Below are positions 2 through 20,314 of a stretch of DNA of 21,555 nt, in pieces; the first letter of the stretch is position 1; the number at the start of each line of letters is the position of its first letter. The DNA comes from a virus. The translations under genes were made by a program, and so were the position numbers. The notes under the pieces were generated by a model. That model was not told where the DNA came from. It searched no databases and saw only the letters and a list, made by a program, of their open reading frames with translations. The DNA is taken from positions 1-21,555 of the IMG/VR virus record IMGVR_UViG_3300031857_017910. One strand, 5' to 3'.

Positions 2-535
2 GAGCCGCTCGGTCTGCTGCCGGGCCCGGCCACCGTCCGCACCGTCGCCGTGCCGTGCGTCAAGCCAGACGTTGTTTCCATGGTCAACGCTGCCGTCGAG
101 GCCGCAACGCAGCCGTGGGTCAGCGTCATTGGCGTGGACGACTGCTATACGCCAACGGCCTTGACGGATTTGGTCAAGGCCGACGCCGCTGGGGCGGAGA
201 TTCTGGTGTGGCATCAGCGGGAGGTCGGGAGTCACGTCTGGAATTGCTACTGGAACCCCGACGTACTTCAGAGGGCCAATACGCTTGCCGGCTCCTGCCC
301 AGTACGGCGGGATTTGTGGCTGCGGGTGGGCGGGCCGCCCAGAATCGCGTGGTCTGATTGGGGGTTCTGGCTGCGGTGTGCGAAAGCCGGTGCCACGGCC
401 TACCAAAGCGACGTGGTGGGCGTCGATTTCGACGCCGGCCGCGGCCATGCCACGTTCAGCGGGTCGGCCACGTTCGAGCAGCTCGCCGCCAGGGACGCCG
501 AGGCACGGGCGTTCGCCATGGAGTTGTTCCTGTGA
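2..535 (+). CDS. Glycosyltransferase-like protein, C-terminal part (5' end outside window)
   Basis: The frame is open from the window edge to the stop at 533-535, so only the C-terminal 177 residues are visible. Seen: a GT-A-like stretch with VSVIGVDDCYTP (hydrophobic strand followed by an acidic DD pair), then SCPVRRDLWLRVGG and WSDWGFWLRCAKAG, the order usual in family 2 glycosyltransferases (nucleotide-sugar strand, then the acceptor-side G/E-D-W-D-like segment). An in-frame GTG at 50 exists, but the reading frame continues upstream with codon use like the rest, so the gene is more likely truncated by the window. It overlaps the next gene, also glycosyltransferase-like, by four bases (GTGA). 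Function is inferred: transfer of a sugar onto phage DNA, phage protein or host surface. The acceptor is unknown. Confidence 0.7.
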   Translation, partial: EPLGLLPGPATVRTVAVPCVKPDVVSMVNAAVEAATQPWVSVIGVDDCYTPTALTDLVKADAAGAEILVWHQREVGSHVWNCYWNPDVLQRANTLAGSCPVRRDLWLRVGGPPRIAWSDWGFWLRCAKAGATAYQSDVVGVDFDAGRGHATFSGSATFEQLAARDAEARAFAMELFL

Positions 536-1587
536 AAATCGGCATCTACGCACTAGCGAGGAACGAAGCCGCGAACGTCACGGCGTGGGAAGCCTCGTGC
601 CGCGAGGCCGACGTGCGGGTCGTCACCGACACGGGCTCGACCGACGCGACGGTGGAGTTGCTCCACTCCGGCGGCGTGGAGGTGGCCCACGGGGCACCCG
701 TGCCGTGGCGGTGGGACGATGCCCACAACCTGTCGCTCTACCATCTGCCGTCCGACGTGGACGTGGCCATCCGGCTCGACCTGGACGAAGTCCTCGACCC
801 AGGATGGCGGGCGGCCCTCGAGGCCGCGTGGCGGCCGGAAACGACGAAAGGCCGCTATTGGTATCAGTGGTCCGAGAACGTCCGATTCCTGTCCGATCGC
901 GTCCATCTGCGGGCCGGCTACCGTTGGGTGGGGGCGACGCACGAGGGTCTGGCCTGCTGGAGTGGCGACGAGGTGCAGACGCAACTCGACGGGTTCACGA
1001 TCCGGCATCACCGCCAGCCAGGCAAGACCCACAAAAGCGACCTGACGCTGCTCCGCCAGGCGGTCCGCGAGAATCCCCTGGACACGCGGATGCACTGGTA
1101 TCTCGCCCGCGAGCTGGACTATGCCCGCGACGCCGAGGCCGCCGAAGCCTTTGAGAGATACCTGGCCATGCCAAACGGGGCGGCCACCGAGCGGGCCTAT
1201 GCCTGCCGGATGCTGGCAAAGCTCCAGCCGGACCGTGCCAAGCCGCGGCTTCTGGAGGCCATCATGGCGGCCCCTCGCGAGCCGGAAGCGTTCCTGGCGT
1301 TCGCGGAACTGGCCGAGAAGATGGGCGATTGGGTGTCGTGCCTTTATTACGCCCGCCATGCTGCGTTCTGCCCAGCGCATAGCCAAAGCCACGCAAGCGA
1401 TCCACGGGCCTACGGGGCCGCTGCCCCCGACCTGGCCTGCATCGCTGCGTCCAAGCTGAACCTCACGTCGGAAGCCCTGCAGCACGCCCGCGAAGCGTTC
1501 AAGCGGTGCCCAGGAGATCAACGTCTGGCGGCGAATCTCGCCATCCTCGAGCAACAGTCCCAGGAGCAAGGCCCGCGGGCCGCATAG
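532..1587 (+). CDS. Family 2 glycosyltransferase with C-terminal TPR-like helical region
   Basis: 351 residues from a GTG start at 532 that overlaps the upstream stop (GTGA). The open frame extends further back, but that part reads as Arg-rich out-of-frame sequence. Residues 1-45 give the GT2 N-terminus: IGIYALARNEAANV followed by VTDTGSTDATVELL, typical of the TDD/SGSTD substrate-binding segment. An acidic DxD-like motif lies at RLDLDEVLDP (about 81-90), the expected metal/nucleotide-sugar ligand. From about residue 170 the protein is helical with repeated A/L/Y spacing (MHWYLARELDYARDAEAAEAFERYL), like TPR units, as in many phage and anaerobe GT2-TPR proteins. Known for the family: inverting transfer from a nucleotide sugar. 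The acceptor cannot be read. It sits translationally coupled behind another glycosyltransferase and directly before the tail genes. Confidence 0.8.
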   Translation: MKIGIYALARNEAANVTAWEASCREADVRVVTDTGSTDATVELLHSGGVEVAHGAPVPWRWDDAHNLSLYHLPSDVDVAIRLDLDEVLDPGWRAALEAAWRPETTKGRYWYQWSENVRFLSDRVHLRAGYRWVGATHEGLACWSGDEVQTQLDGFTIRHHRQPGKTHKSDLTLLRQAVRENPLDTRMHWYLARELDYARDAEAAEAFERYLAMPNGAATERAYACRMLAKLQPDRAKPRLLEAIMAAPREPEAFLAFAELAEKMGDWVSCLYYARHAAFCPAHSQSHASDPRAYGAAAPDLACIAASKLNLTSEALQHAREAFKRCPGDQRLAANLAILEQQSQEQGPRAA

Positions 1588-10178: not shown

Positions 10179-10421
10179 ATGGCCACCAAGGGCATCGTGC
10201 AGACGATTCAATCGCTGATCCCGCCGAACGGCGTCCGGCCGTGGTGGCAACGGGTGACGCCGAAGCAGGCCGCCATGCTCGAGGAAATCCTGGCCGCATG
10301 GAAATCGGGGGCACTGGGAAGCCGGCGTCGGACGGCCGCAAGGGCGATCGCCACCGGCCTGGCGTCCGAGGGTATTTCGATAGGCGAACAGGGGGTCGAG
10401 ACTTGGCTACGTCGAAGCTAG
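10179..10421 (+). CDS. Small basic protein, possibly DNA-binding
   Basis: 80 residues, ATG 10179 immediately after the preceding stop. Mostly helical: KQAAMLEEILAAWKSGALGS, then RRRTAARAIATGLASEGISI and GEQGVETWLRRS. The last two helices (TAARAIATGLASEGI - turn - GEQGVETWL) look like a short helix-turn-helix, as in small phage regulators, but no family is recognised. It ends inside the next gene, overlapping it by 19 bases, so the two are translationally coupled. A role in regulating or delivering the following phosphoesterase is only a guess. Confidence 0.5.
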   Translation: MATKGIVQTIQSLIPPNGVRPWWQRVTPKQAAMLEEILAAWKSGALGSRRRTAARAIATGLASEGISIGEQGVETWLRRS

Positions 10422-11488
10422 TTGAGGCCGTCGCCGCTGACGTGGCCGCTACGGAGCGGCTCGCGGCCGACGCCGAGATCGCCAGGCTGCGGGCCGAGGT
10501 GGCGAGCCTGCGCGGGCGGCACCGGACCGCAGTGGCCGCCCTCAACGCCGAGCGGGATCGAGTGGCAACCCTGACCGCCCTGGCCGGCATCGAAACTAAG
10601 AAGATGCCACCGGCCCGCCAGGCCAAGCAGGGACGCAACCAGGCGACGGCGATTGTCGTGCTGTCGGATTGGCACGTCGAGGAAACCGTGGGCCAGGAGG
10701 TCGGGGCCGCGGGCCAGTGGAACCGCTACAACCTCGACGTGGCCGACGCCCGCATCACGGAACTGGCCGAGCGGTTCGCCACGCTGGTCGAGCACGAGCG
10801 GCAACTGGTGAAGGTTGACCGGCTCGTGATCGCGGCCCTCGGCGATTTCATCTCGGGGCATATCCACGAGGAGCTGCTGGAGTCCACGAGCCTGGCCCCC
10901 CATGCGGCCATGCGTTGGGCCGCGGCCAGGCTCCGCGGCATCATCGACCTGGCCGCCGATATGGCCCGCGAGGTCGTCGTCGTCACGCAACCGGGGAACC
11001 ACGGCCGCAGCAACCACGGCAAGCCGCGGGCCAGCACGGAGCACGACCACAGTTTTGAACAGAACCAATACATCATCCTGGCGAGCGAGGAACGGCGGAA
11101 AAACGTCCGCTGGCAAGTCGGGGAGTCCTACTTGGGGTTCCTCGACCTGGAGGGATTCGTTGTGCGCTATCACCACGGCCACGCCATCCGGTACGGAGGC
11201 GGCGTCGGCGGCATCACGATTCCGGTGAACAAGGCCATCGCCCAGTGGAATCGTTCGCAGCCGGCGCACCTCGACCTGTTCGGTCACTGGCACCAATTCG
11301 GTTGGCTCCGTGGGAGGTACGTTTCCAACGGGTCGCTGATCGGGATGAACGCATACGCCATCCGCATCAAGGCGGAGTTTGAGCCGCCGTGCCAGAGTTT
11401 CGTCGTGGTCGATCACGGCCGCCGGGAGGTCACGAAAGCCCTGCCGATATTCGCCGACCGCGACCTGGAGAAGCGGAGGCCGGCGTGA
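10403..11488 (+). CDS. Calcineurin-like metallophosphoesterase
   Basis: 361 residues from TTG 10403, chosen because AGGGGG at 10389-10394 sits eight bases upstream and because the longer open frame reads as Arg/Pro-rich shadow. Residues about 24-58 form a coiled-coil-like helix (EIARLRAEVASLRGRHR). The catalytic core has all metallophosphoesterase motifs in order: DWH (D89, H91), GDFISG (D148), GNHGR (N199-H200), HHGH (257-260) and GHWH (H295, H297). These bind two metal ions and cleave phosphodiester or phosphomonoester bonds. The substrate cannot be read. Mre11/SbcD-type nucleases and 2',3'-cyclic or ADP-ribose phosphatases share this fold. It lies in the late operon, which is unusual for a DNA-repair role. 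Confidence 0.85.
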   Translation: MATSKLVEAVAADVAATERLAADAEIARLRAEVASLRGRHRTAVAALNAERDRVATLTALAGIETKKMPPARQAKQGRNQATAIVVLSDWHVEETVGQEVGAAGQWNRYNLDVADARITELAERFATLVEHERQLVKVDRLVIAALGDFISGHIHEELLESTSLAPHAAMRWAAARLRGIIDLAADMAREVVVVTQPGNHGRSNHGKPRASTEHDHSFEQNQYIILASEERRKNVRWQVGESYLGFLDLEGFVVRYHHGHAIRYGGGVGGITIPVNKAIAQWNRSQPAHLDLFGHWHQFGWLRGRYVSNGSLIGMNAYAIRIKAEFEPPCQSFVVVDHGRREVTKALPIFADRDLEKRRPA

Positions 11489-12237
11489 GCAAGCCGCTGC
11501 CGGCCGACTACCTCGCCGACGTGGAGCGGCGTTGCCGGCGGTTTCAAGGGACGTGGGATCAAGGGACCAGCGGCTCGTTGGCCGCTGATGCGTTTCGACT
11601 ACTAAGAGAAAGGAAGACGCTGATGGGCACGATCTCGGAACTGGAACGGGCGAATCACGAGCTGCGGGCGGCGGTCGAGGGCCGGCTGGCGGTGGCCGAA
11701 GCGGCCTGCTGTGAGGGGGCTCCCCTCTGCCAGACGATCGACACCCGCGGCCCGCTCGCCGATCCAGACCGGGAGATCGCCGAGGACGACGAGCTGCTCG
11801 AGGATGCCCCGCGGTGCGTCGCCGCGATGGACGAGGGGGCGATGGCCGCCGCCTGGGATGCCATCAAGGAGAAGCACAACGCCATGCACGAGCGGATCAA
11901 GGAGCCTCGCGTGTTTGCCACGCCGGCCTCCGCCGAGGTCACGCCGGCCGAGCGGCTCCTGCAAACGGCCATCGCCACCATCCGCGACCGACGTGGAACC
12001 TACGGGCCGCCGCGGGACCATTTCGCCATCACGATCGGCCTGCTAAATGCGGCCTTCGCCGAGCGGATTCGCCGCAGGCTTGCGGCCGGGGCACCGCCCT
12101 TCGCCCTGGACGATTGGCCAATCATCATGACGCTCGACAAGATCGCCCGCGACACGGGCGGTCCGCGGCAAAGCGCCGATACGCCGATCGACCTGGCCGG
12201 ATACGCGGCCACGCTGGCGGAGTGCCGCACGGCATGA
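11485..12237 (+). CDS. DUF6378-domain phage protein
   Basis: 250 residues from GTG 11485 overlapping the upstream stop (GTGA). The N-terminal half is helical/coiled (RLLRERKTLMGTISELERANHELRAAVEG) with an acidic linker. The C-terminal approximately 90 residues carry the pattern I associate with DUF6378: a DRRGTYGPPRDHFAITIGLLNAAF segment, then DDWPIIMTLDKIARDTGG and the closing DTPIDLAGYAATLAEC. This domain is common in phages and usually stand-alone. Its biochemical role is not established, though it resembles all-alpha nucleotide-binding proteins. Here it is fused to an extra coiled N-terminal region. Domain call by pattern memory, moderately sure. Confidence 0.65.
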   Translation: MSKPLPADYLADVERRCRRFQGTWDQGTSGSLAADAFRLLRERKTLMGTISELERANHELRAAVEGRLAVAEAACCEGAPLCQTIDTRGPLADPDREIAEDDELLEDAPRCVAAMDEGAMAAAWDAIKEKHNAMHERIKEPRVFATPASAEVTPAERLLQTAIATIRDRRGTYGPPRDHFAITIGLLNAAFAERIRRRLAAGAPPFALDDWPIIMTLDKIARDTGGPRQSADTPIDLAGYAATLAECRTA

Positions 12238-12556: not shown

Positions 12557-13065
12557 TGGCCACCTCTTTGTCCGTGAGCGGCAATTCCCGACTCACCTAC
12601 TCGTTTTCCGATTCGCCCACGATCGGCAGTCTCGGCGAGTCCGTGGAACTCAAGACCTCGAGGACCGTCGGCAACGGCACGGGGGCCGGCGAGGCGAACG
12701 TGGCGTGGCGCGACCGGGTCAGCATCACGGCCGGCCAGGTCTATTCGCTGAACCTCTTGAACCTTGGGGCAACGGCGTTCGGGTTCGGCGGGAAGGTCGT
12801 CATCAACACGCTGAAAGAGTTTTTTCTGGTCGTCAACACGACGACCACCAATCGGTACGTCCTCGTCGGGGCGATCGGGCCGAGCGACACGACCGGCTAT
12901 TCCGCCCGCGTCAACCGCGGCGGCGACTACCGCGTGAGCGACTACCAAGACGGTTGGACCGTGACGAACGCGGTGAACAACATCATCTACATCGCCAATC
13001 CGTCGGGCGGCACCGTGTCGATCGACCTCCTGGTGGTGGGCGTCGGGAGCACGGTGGATACATGA
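12556..13065 (+). CDS. Beta-rich putative virion structural protein
   Basis: 169 residues from ATG 12556. Sequence is nearly all beta-strand and small polar residues (SLSVSGNSRLTYSFSDSPT, VVINTLKEFFLVVNTTTTNRYVLVGAIG, GDYRVSDYQDGWTVTNAVNNIIYIANPSGGTVSIDLLVVGVG), without cysteine or enzyme motif. This profile resembles small virion decoration or fibre-associated proteins of phages, but there is no diagnostic motif. It overlaps its downstream neighbour by four bases (ATGA) and links the structural genes to the membrane-protein set. Confidence 0.5.
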   Translation: MATSLSVSGNSRLTYSFSDSPTIGSLGESVELKTSRTVGNGTGAGEANVAWRDRVSITAGQVYSLNLLNLGATAFGFGGKVVINTLKEFFLVVNTTTTNRYVLVGAIGPSDTTGYSARVNRGGDYRVSDYQDGWTVTNAVNNIIYIANPSGGTVSIDLLVVGVGSTVDT

Positions 13066-13436
13066 TTCACGAGGCTCCCGTCTTTGCGTCCAGCGGCCTG
13101 CCCGGCGTCGCCGAGAAGGTGCGATCGTTCATCCTGGCCGCCCAGGAAGCCGCCGCCGGCGGTATTTCGGTGGCGGAGTTTGGCGAGCTGGCGGTTGCCC
13201 TCATGAGGGTCGTGATCGCGGCCGCCGAGAGCATCCCGGCGGACGGGGCCAGGAAAAAGGCGTGGGTTGTCGAGGCCGTCGGTCTGCTGTTTGACGCCGT
13301 GGCCGACGAGGCCGTGCCGACTCTGGCCTATCCCGTCTGGCTGGTCGTCCGGCCAACCGTGCGGACGCTCGTGCTGATGGCGGCCGCCGGTGCGGTCGAG
13401 TCCCTCCTGCCCCTGGTGCGAAAGGCCGCCGCATGA
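13062..13436 (+). CDS. Small hydrophobic helical protein, holin-like candidate
   Basis: 124 residues from ATG 13062 (ATGA overlap with the upstream stop). All-helical and Ala/Val-rich: VAEKVRSFILAAQEAAAG, SVAEFGELAVALMRVVIAAAES, then TLAYPVWLVVRPTVRTLVLMAAAGAVESLLPLVRKAAA, whose last 35 residues are hydrophobic enough for a membrane or membrane-surface helix. It is directly before a two-segment membrane protein and the papain-like peptidase, the place of a holin. The N-terminal part is soluble and charged, unlike a classical small holin. Membrane role inferred from composition and place. Confidence 0.45.
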   Translation: MIHEAPVFASSGLPGVAEKVRSFILAAQEAAAGGISVAEFGELAVALMRVVIAAAESIPADGARKKAWVVEAVGLLFDAVADEAVPTLAYPVWLVVRPTVRTLVLMAAAGAVESLLPLVRKAAA

Positions 13437-13996
13437 TCTTCGCCCTCCTCGCGATCGCGTCGCTGGCCGTGCTGGCCTGGCCGTGGTTGGTCCGTCAGGC
13501 CGAGACCATCATGGCGGACGTGGAGCTGCCGGCCCTCGGCCGGCGGCACCTGGCGGCCGCCCTGTTGGGAGTGGCGGCCGTCTTCGCATGGGTTTCATCG
13601 CCGGCCGTTCCCGACTCCCCGACTCCGGCCCCGCCGCCGGCCGACGCGAAGCTCGACCTTCGCGGGAAGTTCGTCGGGCCCACGGCCGCAGTCGATGCGG
13701 CCATCACGGCGGCGCTCATGGAGGAGGTGGCGGCGGAACTCGAGTACGACGCCGGGCTCCCCGAGCCGCTCCTGCGGACCGGCCAGGCCATGGATCAACT
13801 CCGTCAGCGGGCCCGGCTACTGATGTGCCGCGGCGTCAGCCTCGGCGAGCGGCACCCGTTGGCCAGGGACGCCATCAAGGGCTACCTGGATCAAGCCGCT
13901 GGAGTGGCCGGTGGCCCGCTGTCGCCCGCCGAGCGGTCGGCATGGGTGGCGGCATATCGCGACGTGGCGAGGGCTGCAGCCGATGCCTGCCGGTGA
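13433..13996 (+). CDS. Two-segment membrane protein, holin/spanin-like candidate
   Basis: 187 residues from ATG 13433 (ATGA overlap). Two strong membrane segments: residues 2-20 (IFALLAIASLAVLAWPWLV) and about 39-56 (HLAAALLGVAAVFAWVSS). A Pro/Ala spacer (about 60-70) and a C-terminal helical domain of about 115 residues with two cysteines follow. Two membrane helices at the N-terminus with a longer tail is compatible with a class II holin extended by an extra domain, or with an anchor for the peptidase encoded next. It shares 14 bases with the peptidase gene, so the products are probably made together. Confidence 0.5.
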   Translation: MIFALLAIASLAVLAWPWLVRQAETIMADVELPALGRRHLAAALLGVAAVFAWVSSPAVPDSPTPAPPPADAKLDLRGKFVGPTAAVDAAITAALMEEVAAELEYDAGLPEPLLRTGQAMDQLRQRARLLMCRGVSLGERHPLARDAIKGYLDQAAGVAGGPLSPAERSAWVAAYRDVARAAADACR

Positions 13997-15116
13997 CACC
14001 TACTCGCACCGCCGGCCGGCCCGCCTGCTCGTGGCGGCTCTGCTGGCCGGCGTGGCCGTGGCGTGGTTCGTCCACTGGCGTGGCGCCGGCGGCCCCACGC
14101 CAAGGAACTTCGGGTATCAACCGGACCCCGTGGGCGAACGGGCGTTTCTGGCGAGTCTGCCGGAGCCCTACTTTGCCCAAGCCGGGGCCGAGTGCATCCG
14201 CCAGGCCCGTGGCGTTGATACGTTCCTCTATCGGCCGATGTATCGGGCGCATATGGCCCGCTACAAAAAGCCGTTCGTGGTTGGCCGGCAGCTCATAGGG
14301 GACTGCATAGGCTGGGGTGCGATGCACGCTGTCTACTGCCAGGAGAGCGTGGCCTGGTCGCTGGGCGACGCGGCGGAGCCACCGATCCTCCCGAGCACGG
14401 AAGCCATCTATGGCGGGGCCAGGTGCCAGGCCATGGGGCGATCGTTCGCCGGCTGGTCCGACGGTGCTACCGGGTTCGGTGCCGCGAAGTGGTTGCGGGA
14501 TTGGGGCGTCGTGTATCGCGAGCCGTTTCCCGATCTCGGATTCGATCTGACGACCTACGACCCCAAGCTGGCCAAGGATTGGGGAGCCTACGGGGCGGGT
14601 GGCGAGAAGGGCCGGCCAGGGCTCGAGAAGGTCGCCAAGCAATCGCCCTGCCGTCACGTCGTGGCCGTCCGCACCTGGGCGGAATTGGCGGCGGCCCTGG
14701 AAGCCGGGTTCCCCGTAACGCTCGCCAGCTCGCAGGGGTTCACGAGCAAGCTAGGCCCGTCGGGCATCATGGAAGCCAGCGGCCAGTGGATGCACCAGCT
14801 CGTGGCCCTAGGCATCCGCTACAAGGCCAACGGTTCGCCGGACGACTGCGTTCTGATTCTCAATTCCTGGGGGCCGTCTTGGTGCGGCCCCTATGACAAC
14901 CGATGGCCGGACGATATGCCCGCGGGCTCCTTCTGGGCGCGGCGTCGCGTGGTCGAGGGGATGCTGGGTGATGCGTGGGCGATTGGCAACGTGAAGACCG
15001 GATTCAAGTGGCGTGATCTCCATAACGGCAACTGGCTGCAGCCGGTGCCGGCGGAGGCCCGGCCGGCCGCCCCCGACGTGATGTTCGATCCTGGTTCGTT
15101 GTCTCTGTCGCCGTGA
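13983..15116 (+). CDS. Membrane-anchored papain-like (C1-type) cysteine peptidase
   Basis: 377 residues from ATG 13983, overlapping the membrane protein before it. Residues 13-31 form a signal anchor after a short basic start (RRPARLLVAALLAGVAVAWF). The papain tetrad is visible in order: Gln103 and Cys108 in GRQLIGDCIGWGA, His271 in WMHQLVALGI, and Asn294 in LILNSWGPSWCG, the last matching the family's N-S-W-G-x-x-W-G. Known for C1 peptidases: cysteine-nucleophile peptide hydrolysis. The spacing from Gln to Cys is five residues instead of six, and the usual Cys-Trp is Cys-Ile-Gly-Trp. Location in the holin-adjacent slot suggests it breaks host envelope protein or peptidoglycan peptides during lysis. 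No other lysozyme, amidase or transglycosylase is seen in the window. Confidence 0.75.
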   Translation: MPAGDTYSHRRPARLLVAALLAGVAVAWFVHWRGAGGPTPRNFGYQPDPVGERAFLASLPEPYFAQAGAECIRQARGVDTFLYRPMYRAHMARYKKPFVVGRQLIGDCIGWGAMHAVYCQESVAWSLGDAAEPPILPSTEAIYGGARCQAMGRSFAGWSDGATGFGAAKWLRDWGVVYREPFPDLGFDLTTYDPKLAKDWGAYGAGGEKGRPGLEKVAKQSPCRHVVAVRTWAELAAALEAGFPVTLASSQGFTSKLGPSGIMEASGQWMHQLVALGIRYKANGSPDDCVLILNSWGPSWCGPYDNRWPDDMPAGSFWARRRVVEGMLGDAWAIGNVKTGFKWRDLHNGNWLQPVPAEARPAAPDVMFDPGSLSLSP

Positions 15117-15126
15117 GGGTATTTCG

Positions 15127-15381
15127 ATGCTCGACCGCAAGACGTTGCTCGTGGTAGTGGCCGCCCTGGCCGTCGGCTACTGGTTGGCGGGCGGTGCCCA
15201 GCGGCCGACGCCCGAGACCGATCGCCCCGTCCTGCGGTGGATCGTCAAGACGGCCAAGAGTTTGCTCTGGCTCGCCCTCGTGGCCGAGCCGGCGCCGCCC
15301 GAGCAACCGACGCGGCTTGTGCAGTCACGAGCGGTCGGTGAGGACGGCTATCCCCTGGTCGATCACGGGCAAGGGTGGTGA
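15127..15381 (+). CDS. Small single-pass membrane protein
   Basis: 84 residues from ATG 15127 with GAGGG ten bases upstream. Charged start MLDRK, then a membrane helix (TLLVVVAALAVGYWLAGGA, residues 6-24), a Thr/Pro linker, and a second partly hydrophobic helix (LRWIVKTAKSLLWLALVA). The tail is Pro-rich and polar. Size, single anchor and Pro-rich tail recall spanin or Rz-like accessory lysis proteins, but there is no lipobox and no coiled coil. Function is inferred from its place three genes into the membrane block. Confidence 0.5.
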   Translation: MLDRKTLLVVVAALAVGYWLAGGAQRPTPETDRPVLRWIVKTAKSLLWLALVAEPAPPEQPTRLVQSRAVGEDGYPLVDHGQGW

Positions 15382-15384
15382 ATC

Positions 15385-15678
15385 ATGACGATCTGGCGTT
15401 GGTTCGTGTCGTGGCTGGTCTGGTTGTCCGCCGATCCGGCGGAGATTGACCGCCAGGCGCCGCGGGCCGCGGCGGCGGTGGCCGCCGCTCGAGCCAGCAT
15501 GACGCCGGACGAATCCCCTGCCCCGCCCCCTGCCCCTGCGGAGTGTGTCTGCGGCCGGACGTGCGTGAACGGCTATTGGAAGCCCGATGGGCGAATCCTG
15601 CAGCCGTGCCCGTGCAAGTGCTCGCGATGCGTCAAGAAGCCGGCATCGTGCCCCGACGGCCGGTGCCCGCCGAGGTAG
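15385..15678 (+). CDS. Membrane-anchored cysteine-rich small protein
   Basis: 97 residues from ATG 15385. A short aromatic hydrophobic start (TIWRWFVSWLVWL) is followed by an Ala/Pro linker (residues 25-52). A compact cysteine module then follows: CVCGRTCVNGYWKPDG, CPCKCSRC and a final SCPDGRC, ten cysteines in about 40 residues. The spacing (C-x-C-x3-C, C-x-C-x-C-x2-C) suggests zinc binding or a disulfide knot. Being behind an N-terminal membrane segment, it may be exported and oxidised, or face the cytoplasm and bind metal. No known family recognised. Confidence 0.55.
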   Translation: MTIWRWFVSWLVWLSADPAEIDRQAPRAAAAVAAARASMTPDESPAPPPAPAECVCGRTCVNGYWKPDGRILQPCPCKCSRCVKKPASCPDGRCPPR

Positions 15679-16685: not shown

Positions 16686-17167
16686 GCGTAGGCTCCTGCA
16701 AGAAGTTGCGACGGAAACGGGGCGACGGGCACGGTGGGCGGGACGATCCATTCATAGGTTGTCCCGTCGGGGTGGCGGGACGGCGGAAGGACGGACTGCG
16801 CCGCCCGGCCGCCAATCCGTATTTCGATCGCGTCCAGTTTGACCACGGCCACGGGCGGCATCCACGGCTCCCAACGGAATAGCCTGTGCTCGCCCCTGGC
16901 CGATCGCCAGGTTGGGGTGGCGAGGTCGGTTATCCCGTAGGCCGCGAGTTGGTCGAGCCCGTCGGGCTCGTCATACTCCACGTCCACGAGCCCCGACGCC
17001 GGGCCGAGGAGTAGGCCGACGTTGGAACCGGACCGCAGCCATCCGGCCACGTCGGCCGGGTTGTCGGTGCTGCGGGTTTGCCATGCGGCGCCGAGCGGGC
17101 GCTTTTCCCGGCGGGCGAGCCGGACGAAACGGCCGCCGATGGCCGCCAGGTGCTCGAGGTCGGTCAT
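16682..17167 (-). CDS. Stand-alone Prim-Pol (bifunctional DNA primase/polymerase) domain protein
   Basis: 161 residues from ATG at 17167, preceded by the leader AGGAGAGAACCC. Archaeo-eukaryotic primase-type motifs are visible: the start FVRLARREKRPLGAAWQ, the metal-binding VDVEYDEPDG (D62, E64, D66), the ARGEHRLFRW segment (H94) matching the family's G-x-H motif, and the third-motif region IEIRIGGRAAQSVLPPSRHP with GTTYEW. Known for the family: templated primer synthesis, in phages usually fused to a helicase. Here the protein ends right after the domain and no helicase follows, so it may act with a host or distant helicase, or be a remnant cassette. It lies in an array under the leftward promoter. 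Confidence 0.75.
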   Translation of the reverse strand: MTDLEHLAAIGGRFVRLARREKRPLGAAWQTRSTDNPADVAGWLRSGSNVGLLLGPASGLVDVEYDEPDGLDQLAAYGITDLATPTWRSARGEHRLFRWEPWMPPVAVVKLDAIEIRIGGRAAQSVLPPSRHPDGTTYEWIVPPTVPVAPFPSQLLAGAYA

Positions 17168-17826: not shown

Positions 17827-17830
17827 GCGT

Positions 17831-17910
17831 CATGGGTTCGGGGTGGGTTGGCTATGGGTTCGGGGTGGGTTGGCCATGGGTTCGGGCCGGGTTGGCCATG
17901 GGTTGGCCGG
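17831..17910 (-). repeat. 22-bp tandem repeat, about 3.6 copies
   Basis: Unit borders 17831-17852, 17853-17874, 17875-17896 and a shortened 17897-17910. Units 1 and 2 differ at one base (the first). Unit 3 has two substitutions (gtg to ccg region). Each unit contains the gene-start motif CATGGGTTCGGG without the Shine-Dalgarno part, so it looks like multiplied and decayed start leaders. It sits between a stop codon and promoter B. Confidence 0.85.
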
Positions 17911-19725: not shown

Positions 19726-19778
19726 GCCGGCCCGTCGCCCCACGGCCGCGGGCGCCGTGGGGGTGCGGGCGGGCCGGC
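19726..19778 (-). terminator. Long two-part hairpin at the ArdA stop codon
   Basis: Outer arms 19726-19734 and 19770-19778 pair over 9 bp. Inner arms 19738-19746 and 19754-19762 pair over 9 bp, with small internal loops. It begins inside the TAG stop (19778-19780) of ArdA. No T-tract follows, so strong pausing or 3'-end protection of the ArdA message is at least as likely as termination. Confidence 0.5.
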
Positions 19779-20314
19779 TACTCGCGGGTGTAGACGTAGA
19801 CGCGGCCGCCGTCGGCCTGGTGGGTCTCAACGTCGCCGGACAGTTCGAGGTCTCGGCCCATACGTTGCCAATCGACGTAACGGGCCGGGTGCCACCACGA
19901 GCCGCAGCTAGCCTTGTCGGCGTCGTAGCCCATGTCGTCCCAAAGGCTTTCGGCGTAGTCGGCTAGAGAGTCCCATACTCCGCGATACACGTCGGCGAAG
20001 TCGGCAGGATCGCGGCCGGGCTCGCCGTCGAGCCAGGCGAGCAAGGCGGGCGCGTCGTCGCCCGCCTGGTCGATCGCCTCGCCGATCGCGGCGACGCGGT
20101 CGATCTGCTCGTATTCGCCAATCCCGCCTAGTCCCTCGTGGTCGTGGATGGCGAACTCCTCGGCGCCGGGTTCGGGGCTCTCGGCGAGCATGGCGGCTAT
20201 CTGCTCGTGAATGGCGTCGGCGCCGATCGTGGCGTCGATCCATCGGCCATGAAGTCGGCCGCCGTTGTAGGCAGCGAGGCAGGCAACGTAGATGCGGGGC
20301 TTCGTCGTGGTCAT
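19778..20314 (-). CDS. ardA: ArdA antirestriction protein
   Basis: 178 residues, ATG at 20314 behind a leader with one changed base. The whole N-terminal half is family-typical: PRIYVACLAAYNGGRLHGRW then IDATIGADAIHEQIAAMLAE and EEFAIHDHEGLGGIGEYEQI. The C-terminal half has the acidic FADVYRGVWDSLADYAESLW and a DWQRMGRDLELSGDV block, as in other members. Length near the usual 165-180 residues. ArdA is a strongly acidic DNA mimic, working as a dimer, that binds type I restriction-modification enzymes and blocks them. It is carried by plasmids, conjugative elements and some phages. It is the first gene behind promoter C, suiting early expression on entry. Confidence 0.93.
   Translation of the reverse strand: MTTTKPRIYVACLAAYNGGRLHGRWIDATIGADAIHEQIAAMLAESPEPGAEEFAIHDHEGLGGIGEYEQIDRVAAIGEAIDQAGDDAPALLAWLDGEPGRDPADFADVYRGVWDSLADYAESLWDDMGYDADKASCGSWWHPARYVDWQRMGRDLELSGDVETHQADGGRVYVYTRE

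Follow-up and report, generated by a model that had tools for sequence, protein, structure and literature searches.

Introduction

SAR endolysins, for example P1 Lyz, combine an N-terminal membrane tether with a periplasmic catalytic domain. The closest solved relative of the peptidase described here is xylellain (3OIS), a bacterial C1A peptidase with which it has its fold and active residues in common, and xylellain-type C1A genes have already been reported in tailed phages (Caudoviricetes; PMC10380794). Phage lysins with a papain-family domain also have precedents: the N5 domains of mycobacteriophage Lysin A are papain-family and C39-like (PMC3314691), and the phage pseudomurein endoisopeptidases PeiW and PeiP, as cited in PMC10318531, cut wall peptides. 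Such papain-superfamily peptidases are active, or thought to be active, in phage lysis, but they are joined to amidase, muramidase or wall-binding domains or cut pseudomurein, whereas the peptidase reported here stands alone.

What bears the load in the planctomycete wall, protein, peptidoglycan or the two together, has been debated since the 1980s, and a phage lysis enzyme offers an unbiased way to learn which bond in that wall must be cut. Planctomycete walls contain cysteine-rich YTV proteins, and peptidoglycan-synthesis genes are said to be missing in most Planctomycetales (PMC8567305), which favours a protein substrate. Planctomycete sacculi contain peptidoglycan, including DAP, and disintegrate with lysozyme (PMC4432640), which favours peptide cross-links as the substrate and means that host biology does not require a lysin that is purely a protease.

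We analysed a virus record of 21,555 bases, perhaps a fragment, which is referred to below as the window. In our view, its papain-like open reading frame (Table 1) probably supplies the catalytic component of an envelope-lysis module, made up of five genes, in temperate planctomycete phages. The role in lysis is drawn from computed context; no annotated homologue ties the module to lysis, and a literature search on planctomycete phage lysis returned nothing on the module; the C1A peptidase is its only recognisable enzyme. If the module lyses by proteolysis, it would represent a new exit route for tailed phages, present in hundreds of uncultured phages, and if the peptidase cuts peptidoglycan peptides it would represent a new class of stand-alone C1A endolysin.

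Table 1. Features of the window and of related loci. Counts of neighbouring genes come from profile scoring of 194 non-redundant papain loci, and denominators are the loci with enough sequence.
Feature	Coordinates	Strand	Remarks
124-aa protein, hydrophobic C-terminal segments	13062..13436	+	candidate holin by context; 165/170 loci
187-aa two-helix membrane protein, predicted periplasmic domain	13433..13996	+	directly upstream of papain in 185/185 non-redundant loci
Membrane-anchored papain-like (C1A, xylellain-like) peptidase	13983..15116	+	377 aa, ATG start
Predicted signal-anchor/transmembrane segment	14016..14072	+	residues 12-30 of the papain-like ORF, best hydrophobic stretch
Q103 codon	14289-14291	+	active residue
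C108 codon	14304-14306	+	active residue
H271 codon	14793-14795	+	active residue
N294 codon	14862-14864	+	active residue
84-aa protein with a clear membrane helix and a possible second one	15127..15381	+	150/152 loci
97-aa predicted secreted Cys-rich protein	15385..15678	+	CxCGxxC...CPCxC...CPDGxC; 142/145 loci
phrog_284 exonuclease-like gene	10418-11488	+	just upstream of the module
DUF6378 protein	11389-12237	+	just upstream of the module
Glycosyltransferase-like genes, window	2-1587	+	between structural genes
Glycosyltransferase-like genes, L125	1103-3748		between structural genes
Pap2 and secreted HtrA/MarP-like protease with Cys-rich motifs	L284:7248-8932		second phage group
Stand-alone N-terminal Prim-Pol domain, 161 aa	16682-17167	-	PF09250, E 2.3e-22
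ArdA antirestriction protein	19778-20314	-	PF07275, E 1.1e-34

Overall fold and active site

The four active residues named in the first-pass annotation (Q103, C108, H271 and N294) are all present at those positions, and an S-W-G segment directly follows N294, which is a papain-like arrangement. Structure prediction, which that annotation had named as a check, gave an AlphaFold2 model (built from a 26-sequence alignment, A1) with a mean pLDDT of 83.4, in which a papain fold of the C1A, xylellain-like type is predicted with confidence and the active site appears usable. The best solved match found by Foldseek was xylellain (E = 3e-11), and comparison of the model with this structure by VIA-align 2 supports the assignment (Z 22.0, 240 residues, 3.2 Å, about 20% identity). 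The next structural matches were cathepsins B and K and papain precursors. Searches of Pfam, PHROG, NCBIfam and PDB sequences with the window peptidase returned no match; the protein does not reach the cut-off of PF00112 and does not match the CHAP, NlpC/P60, M23, amidase or lysozyme profiles. A distant relative from a Planctomycetaceae MAG (L045) matches PF00112 at 24.9 bits, the cut-off being 20.7. The window peptidase is papain-like by fold and residues and lies outside the present Pfam model.

Among the best matches to the model in a viral fold library are Peptidase_C1 proteins from uncultured tailed phages; the model also matches proteins named N acetylmuramidase and peptidoglycan binding-like. 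These last matches speak for an ordinary endolysin, in which the papain fold is turned to the cross-link or stem peptides of peptidoglycan and a protein wall is irrelevant, as do the DAP-containing sacculi that fall apart with lysozyme (PMC4432640) and the wall-peptide-cutting lysins known within the papain superfamily (CHAP; PeiW/PeiP, as cited in PMC10318531; N5, PMC3314691). However, the peptidase has no peptidoglycan-binding domain, and the solved structures nearest to it are those of true C1A proteases. We regard an ordinary endolysin as a serious possibility that nonetheless falls short of an even chance; it is a narrower version of the envelope-lysis explanation, and the confidences placed in the two overlap.

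The N-terminal anchor proposed in the first-pass annotation is also borne out, since the hydrophobic stretch directly follows R10 and R11 and is mostly kept in the 26 aligned relatives. An anchor-type stretch with a mean hydropathy of at least 1.59 is found in 21 of these 26 sequences; in two others the value reaches 1.35, and the N-termini of the remaining three are truncated or wrongly assigned. By the charge rule, the N-terminus of the protein would be cytoplasmic and its catalytic domain periplasmic. A predicted N-terminal tether ahead of a periplasmic catalytic domain is also the layout of the SAR endolysins, whose anchor is releasable and weakly hydrophobic; the enzyme class differs, and the anchors of this family are only moderately Gly/Ala-rich (21-42%), with a mean hydropathy mostly of about 2.

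Family members and residue conservation

A single-sequence scan of IMG/VR with the papain-like protein found 38 relatives, and a search of the same resource with the 26-sequence alignment confirmed at least 517. Single-sequence scans found no relative in INPHARED (50,697 records) and no match in GTDB contigs, the cellular genomes being reached with the alignment only. Q103 and C108 are kept in every one of 201 distinct relatives, H271 in 199 of the 199 in which the residue is present and N294 in 195 of 198, a pattern which, judged from these sequences, is not due to chance. It had been suggested earlier that an altered Gln-Cys spacing might mark a distinct subfamily. The spacing is four residues in the window protein and in 160 sequences, and five, as in papain, in 37; both values therefore occur inside one family, the spacing marks no separate subfamily, and we have ruled it out as a marker.

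The five-gene module

Placement of the papain gene in a lysis slot, as first proposed, agrees with its position within a compact, co-moving set of genes for small membrane and secreted proteins. The gene for the 187-aa protein, which has two hydrophobic N-terminal stretches, ends 14 nt inside the papain ORF, in keeping with the coupling to a two-helix membrane protein that had been noted from the sequence. When the search was started from the 187-aa family, papain followed directly in 72 of 72 loci with room, and the complete module is present in 115 of the 121 non-redundant papain loci with enough sequence. Unlike xylellain, the window peptidase has a signal anchor and an obligate membrane partner whose gene is coupled to its own, and it belongs to a five-gene module of planctomycete phages. 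In two cellular-genome prophages, those of Blastopirellula marina (L043) and L041, a secreted thioredoxin-like protein replaces the Cys-rich one, and the B. marina protein has a Pfam match. None of the small membrane proteins of the window matched a holin family in Pfam and PHROG searches; the context and hydrophobic segments of the 124-aa protein make it a candidate holin. We also note a 75-aa Transgly_assoc-type protein (L119:15738-15962, minus strand; weak PF04226, and NF007771 at 1.7e-11, below the cut-off), which adjoins papain in 42 loci and is another holin-like candidate.

The structural genes around the module are lambda/Mu-like in two relatives (G013 and G015) and HK97-like in a third (G016), and in the B. 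marina prophage a terminase gene lies close downstream. Because the surrounding genes vary while the module stays constant, the module behaves as an independent unit. The position of the window papain gene downstream of tail genes could suggest a virion maturation or entry protease. Against this, the peptidase carries a signal anchor, relatives already have a head maturation protease of another family (Peptidase_S78), and the module accompanies membrane proteins and adjoins the differing structural types of G013/G015, G016 and B. marina; we consider a virion protease very improbable.

Carriers and hosts

The relatives that the alignment search found in cellular genomes are mostly in Planctomycetota MAGs, together with the genome of B. 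marina DSM 3645. The papain gene of this strain is accompanied by homologues of the 124-aa and 187-aa proteins, and terminase-, portal-, protease- and capsid-like ORFs could be read from the sequence nearby. Matches to the papain family occur in 12 of 392 Planctomycetota genomes, and the closest of them adjoin module proteins. The identifiable carriers of the module are mostly Planctomycetota prophages and MAGs, and from these carriers of relatives we infer that the host of the window phage is probably a planctomycete. Distant papain relatives without the module are found in other planctomycetes and in Mucilaginibacter. Two Mucilaginibacter chromosomes (L046:9815-10777 and L047) contain a relative of about 30% identity; these were set aside as distant host genes, that of L046 having neither an anchor nor phage neighbours.

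Two carrier records of about 44 kb represent nearly whole phages and encode terminase, portal, capsid, tape measure, tail, replication and integrase genes. Carriage by temperate phages with integrases would suit a gene for lysogenic conversion, superinfection exclusion or defence. However, PADLOC returned no match for the five module proteins of the window, and a same-strand, overlapping and near-obligate order of five genes in very diverse phages is unlike a mobile accessory gene. In our judgement there is little chance that the peptidase serves such a purpose.

Exchange of the protease

Three loci that encode the 124-aa protein lack the papain and 187-aa genes despite several kilobases of downstream sequence. 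In the two of these that were read (L284 and L282), the slot is occupied by a 289-aa protein, Pap2, together with a trypsin/HtrA-like protease that is secreted. At least 91 contigs encode Pap2; the serine protease comes after it in 73 of 73 loci with room, the 124-aa protein comes before it in 57 of 61, and papain is present in none of 83 Pap2 loci. Where loci of the 124-aa protein extend for more than 2.5 kb downstream, they contain either papain and its partner (26 loci) or Pap2 with or without the HtrA-like protease (19 loci), and no other content.

The serine protease of the slot matches Trypsin_2 (3e-19) and, at 1.8e-15, the MarP family, the second of these matches falling short of the curated cut-off. 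It is comparable with the membrane-associated MarP/HtrA serine proteases, but it is phage-encoded and fused to Cys-rich motifs of the module, with a CxxCxG segment and a CPDGRC tail that resemble the 97-aa protein of the window. Trypsin/HtrA-like serine proteases are not known to cut peptidoglycan peptides, and the presence of one in the slot of this second phage group argues further against an ordinary endolysin. In Pap2 an invariant Gln is followed, after five residues, by a Cys that is likewise invariant and, further on, by an invariant Gly-His-Ala-Val. Its AlphaFold2 model has a pLDDT of 30 and its comparison with the papain profile (A1) was negative; we make no claim that it has a papain fold, and by its sequence it would be papain-like by motif only.

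A slot that takes different peptidase classes, papain in one group and Pap2 with an HtrA-like protease in the other, would be understandable if any wall-opening protease suffices. Lysis would then proceed by proteolysis together with thiol chemistry on a protein wall that is rich in disulfides and bears the load, and no peptidoglycan hydrolase would be involved. We put forward lysis of this kind tentatively and hold it to be rather doubtful.

Conventional lysins and proposed mechanism

The first-pass annotation had seen no classical endolysin, and profile and ORF searches of the 21.5-kb window found no lysin. Seven families (Amidase_2, Phage_lysozyme, SLT, CHAP, Amidase_3, M23 and NLPC_P60) likewise gave zero matches in 17-22 long related records, in searches that detected their built-in positive controls. 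No amidase, lysozyme, transglycosylase, CHAP or M23 family is among the 25 Pfam families listed for each of the two relatives of about 44 kb (extending to E of about 5e-5 and 1e-4), and there is no lysin among the Pfam matches listed (E to about 2e-5) for 60 further proteins from seven other long relatives. As the long records are metagenomic and carry no completeness value, a divergent or unknown endolysin could escape detection.

Many proteins of the module-bearing phages match no family, and one of them might be an unrecognised enzyme that opens the peptidoglycan, with the module as an accessory to lysis in which a spanin-like or outer-layer protease frees the last protein layer. The anchor and the small membrane proteins would also suit a spanin-like step. 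The absence of the seven lysin families, with the controls working, argues against an accessory role, as does the finding that, in an initial set of 118 papain-bearing loci, none of the window's other enzyme genes accompanies the module constantly; we think such a role unlikely.

A tethered peptidase with small membrane proteins, a coupled partner and a thiol protein, in phages in which no endolysin was found, fits an envelope-lysis module, which is the interpretation that we prefer. In such a module the peptidase would be made late, and its signal anchor would place it in the inner membrane. From there the catalytic domain, lying on the periplasmic side, would cut peptide bonds on which the cohesion of the envelope depends, and so take the part that an endolysin plays elsewhere. 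The small membrane proteins encoded up- and downstream may set the timing or open the membrane in a holin- or antiholin-like manner, and the coupled 187-aa protein may hold the enzyme in an inactive state. Thiol management would be the task of the secreted Cys-rich (or thioredoxin-like) protein, which may keep C108 reduced in the periplasm or, alternatively, open the disulfides of host Cys-rich wall proteins.

Other features of the window

The phrog_284 exonuclease-like gene and the DUF6378 gene recur in about 30 of the initial 118 papain-bearing loci. In the G015 relative, methyltransferase and mannosyltransferase genes are present, apparently in the area of the glycosyltransferase genes. On the minus strand of the window between 16.9 and 21.5 kb, a near-identical leader, GGAGCCCGAACCCATG (plus strand CATGGGTTCGGGCTCC), ends at the start codons of small genes. 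It is found at seven genes at least (18178, 18569, 19223, 19681, 20312, 21146 and 21477), with variants at 17154, 17450 and 20648, and is perhaps a shared translation leader. Approximately three head-to-tail 22-bp copies of a ATGGGTTCGGGGTGGGTTGGC unit, which resembles this start-associated leader, are located at 17828-17909.
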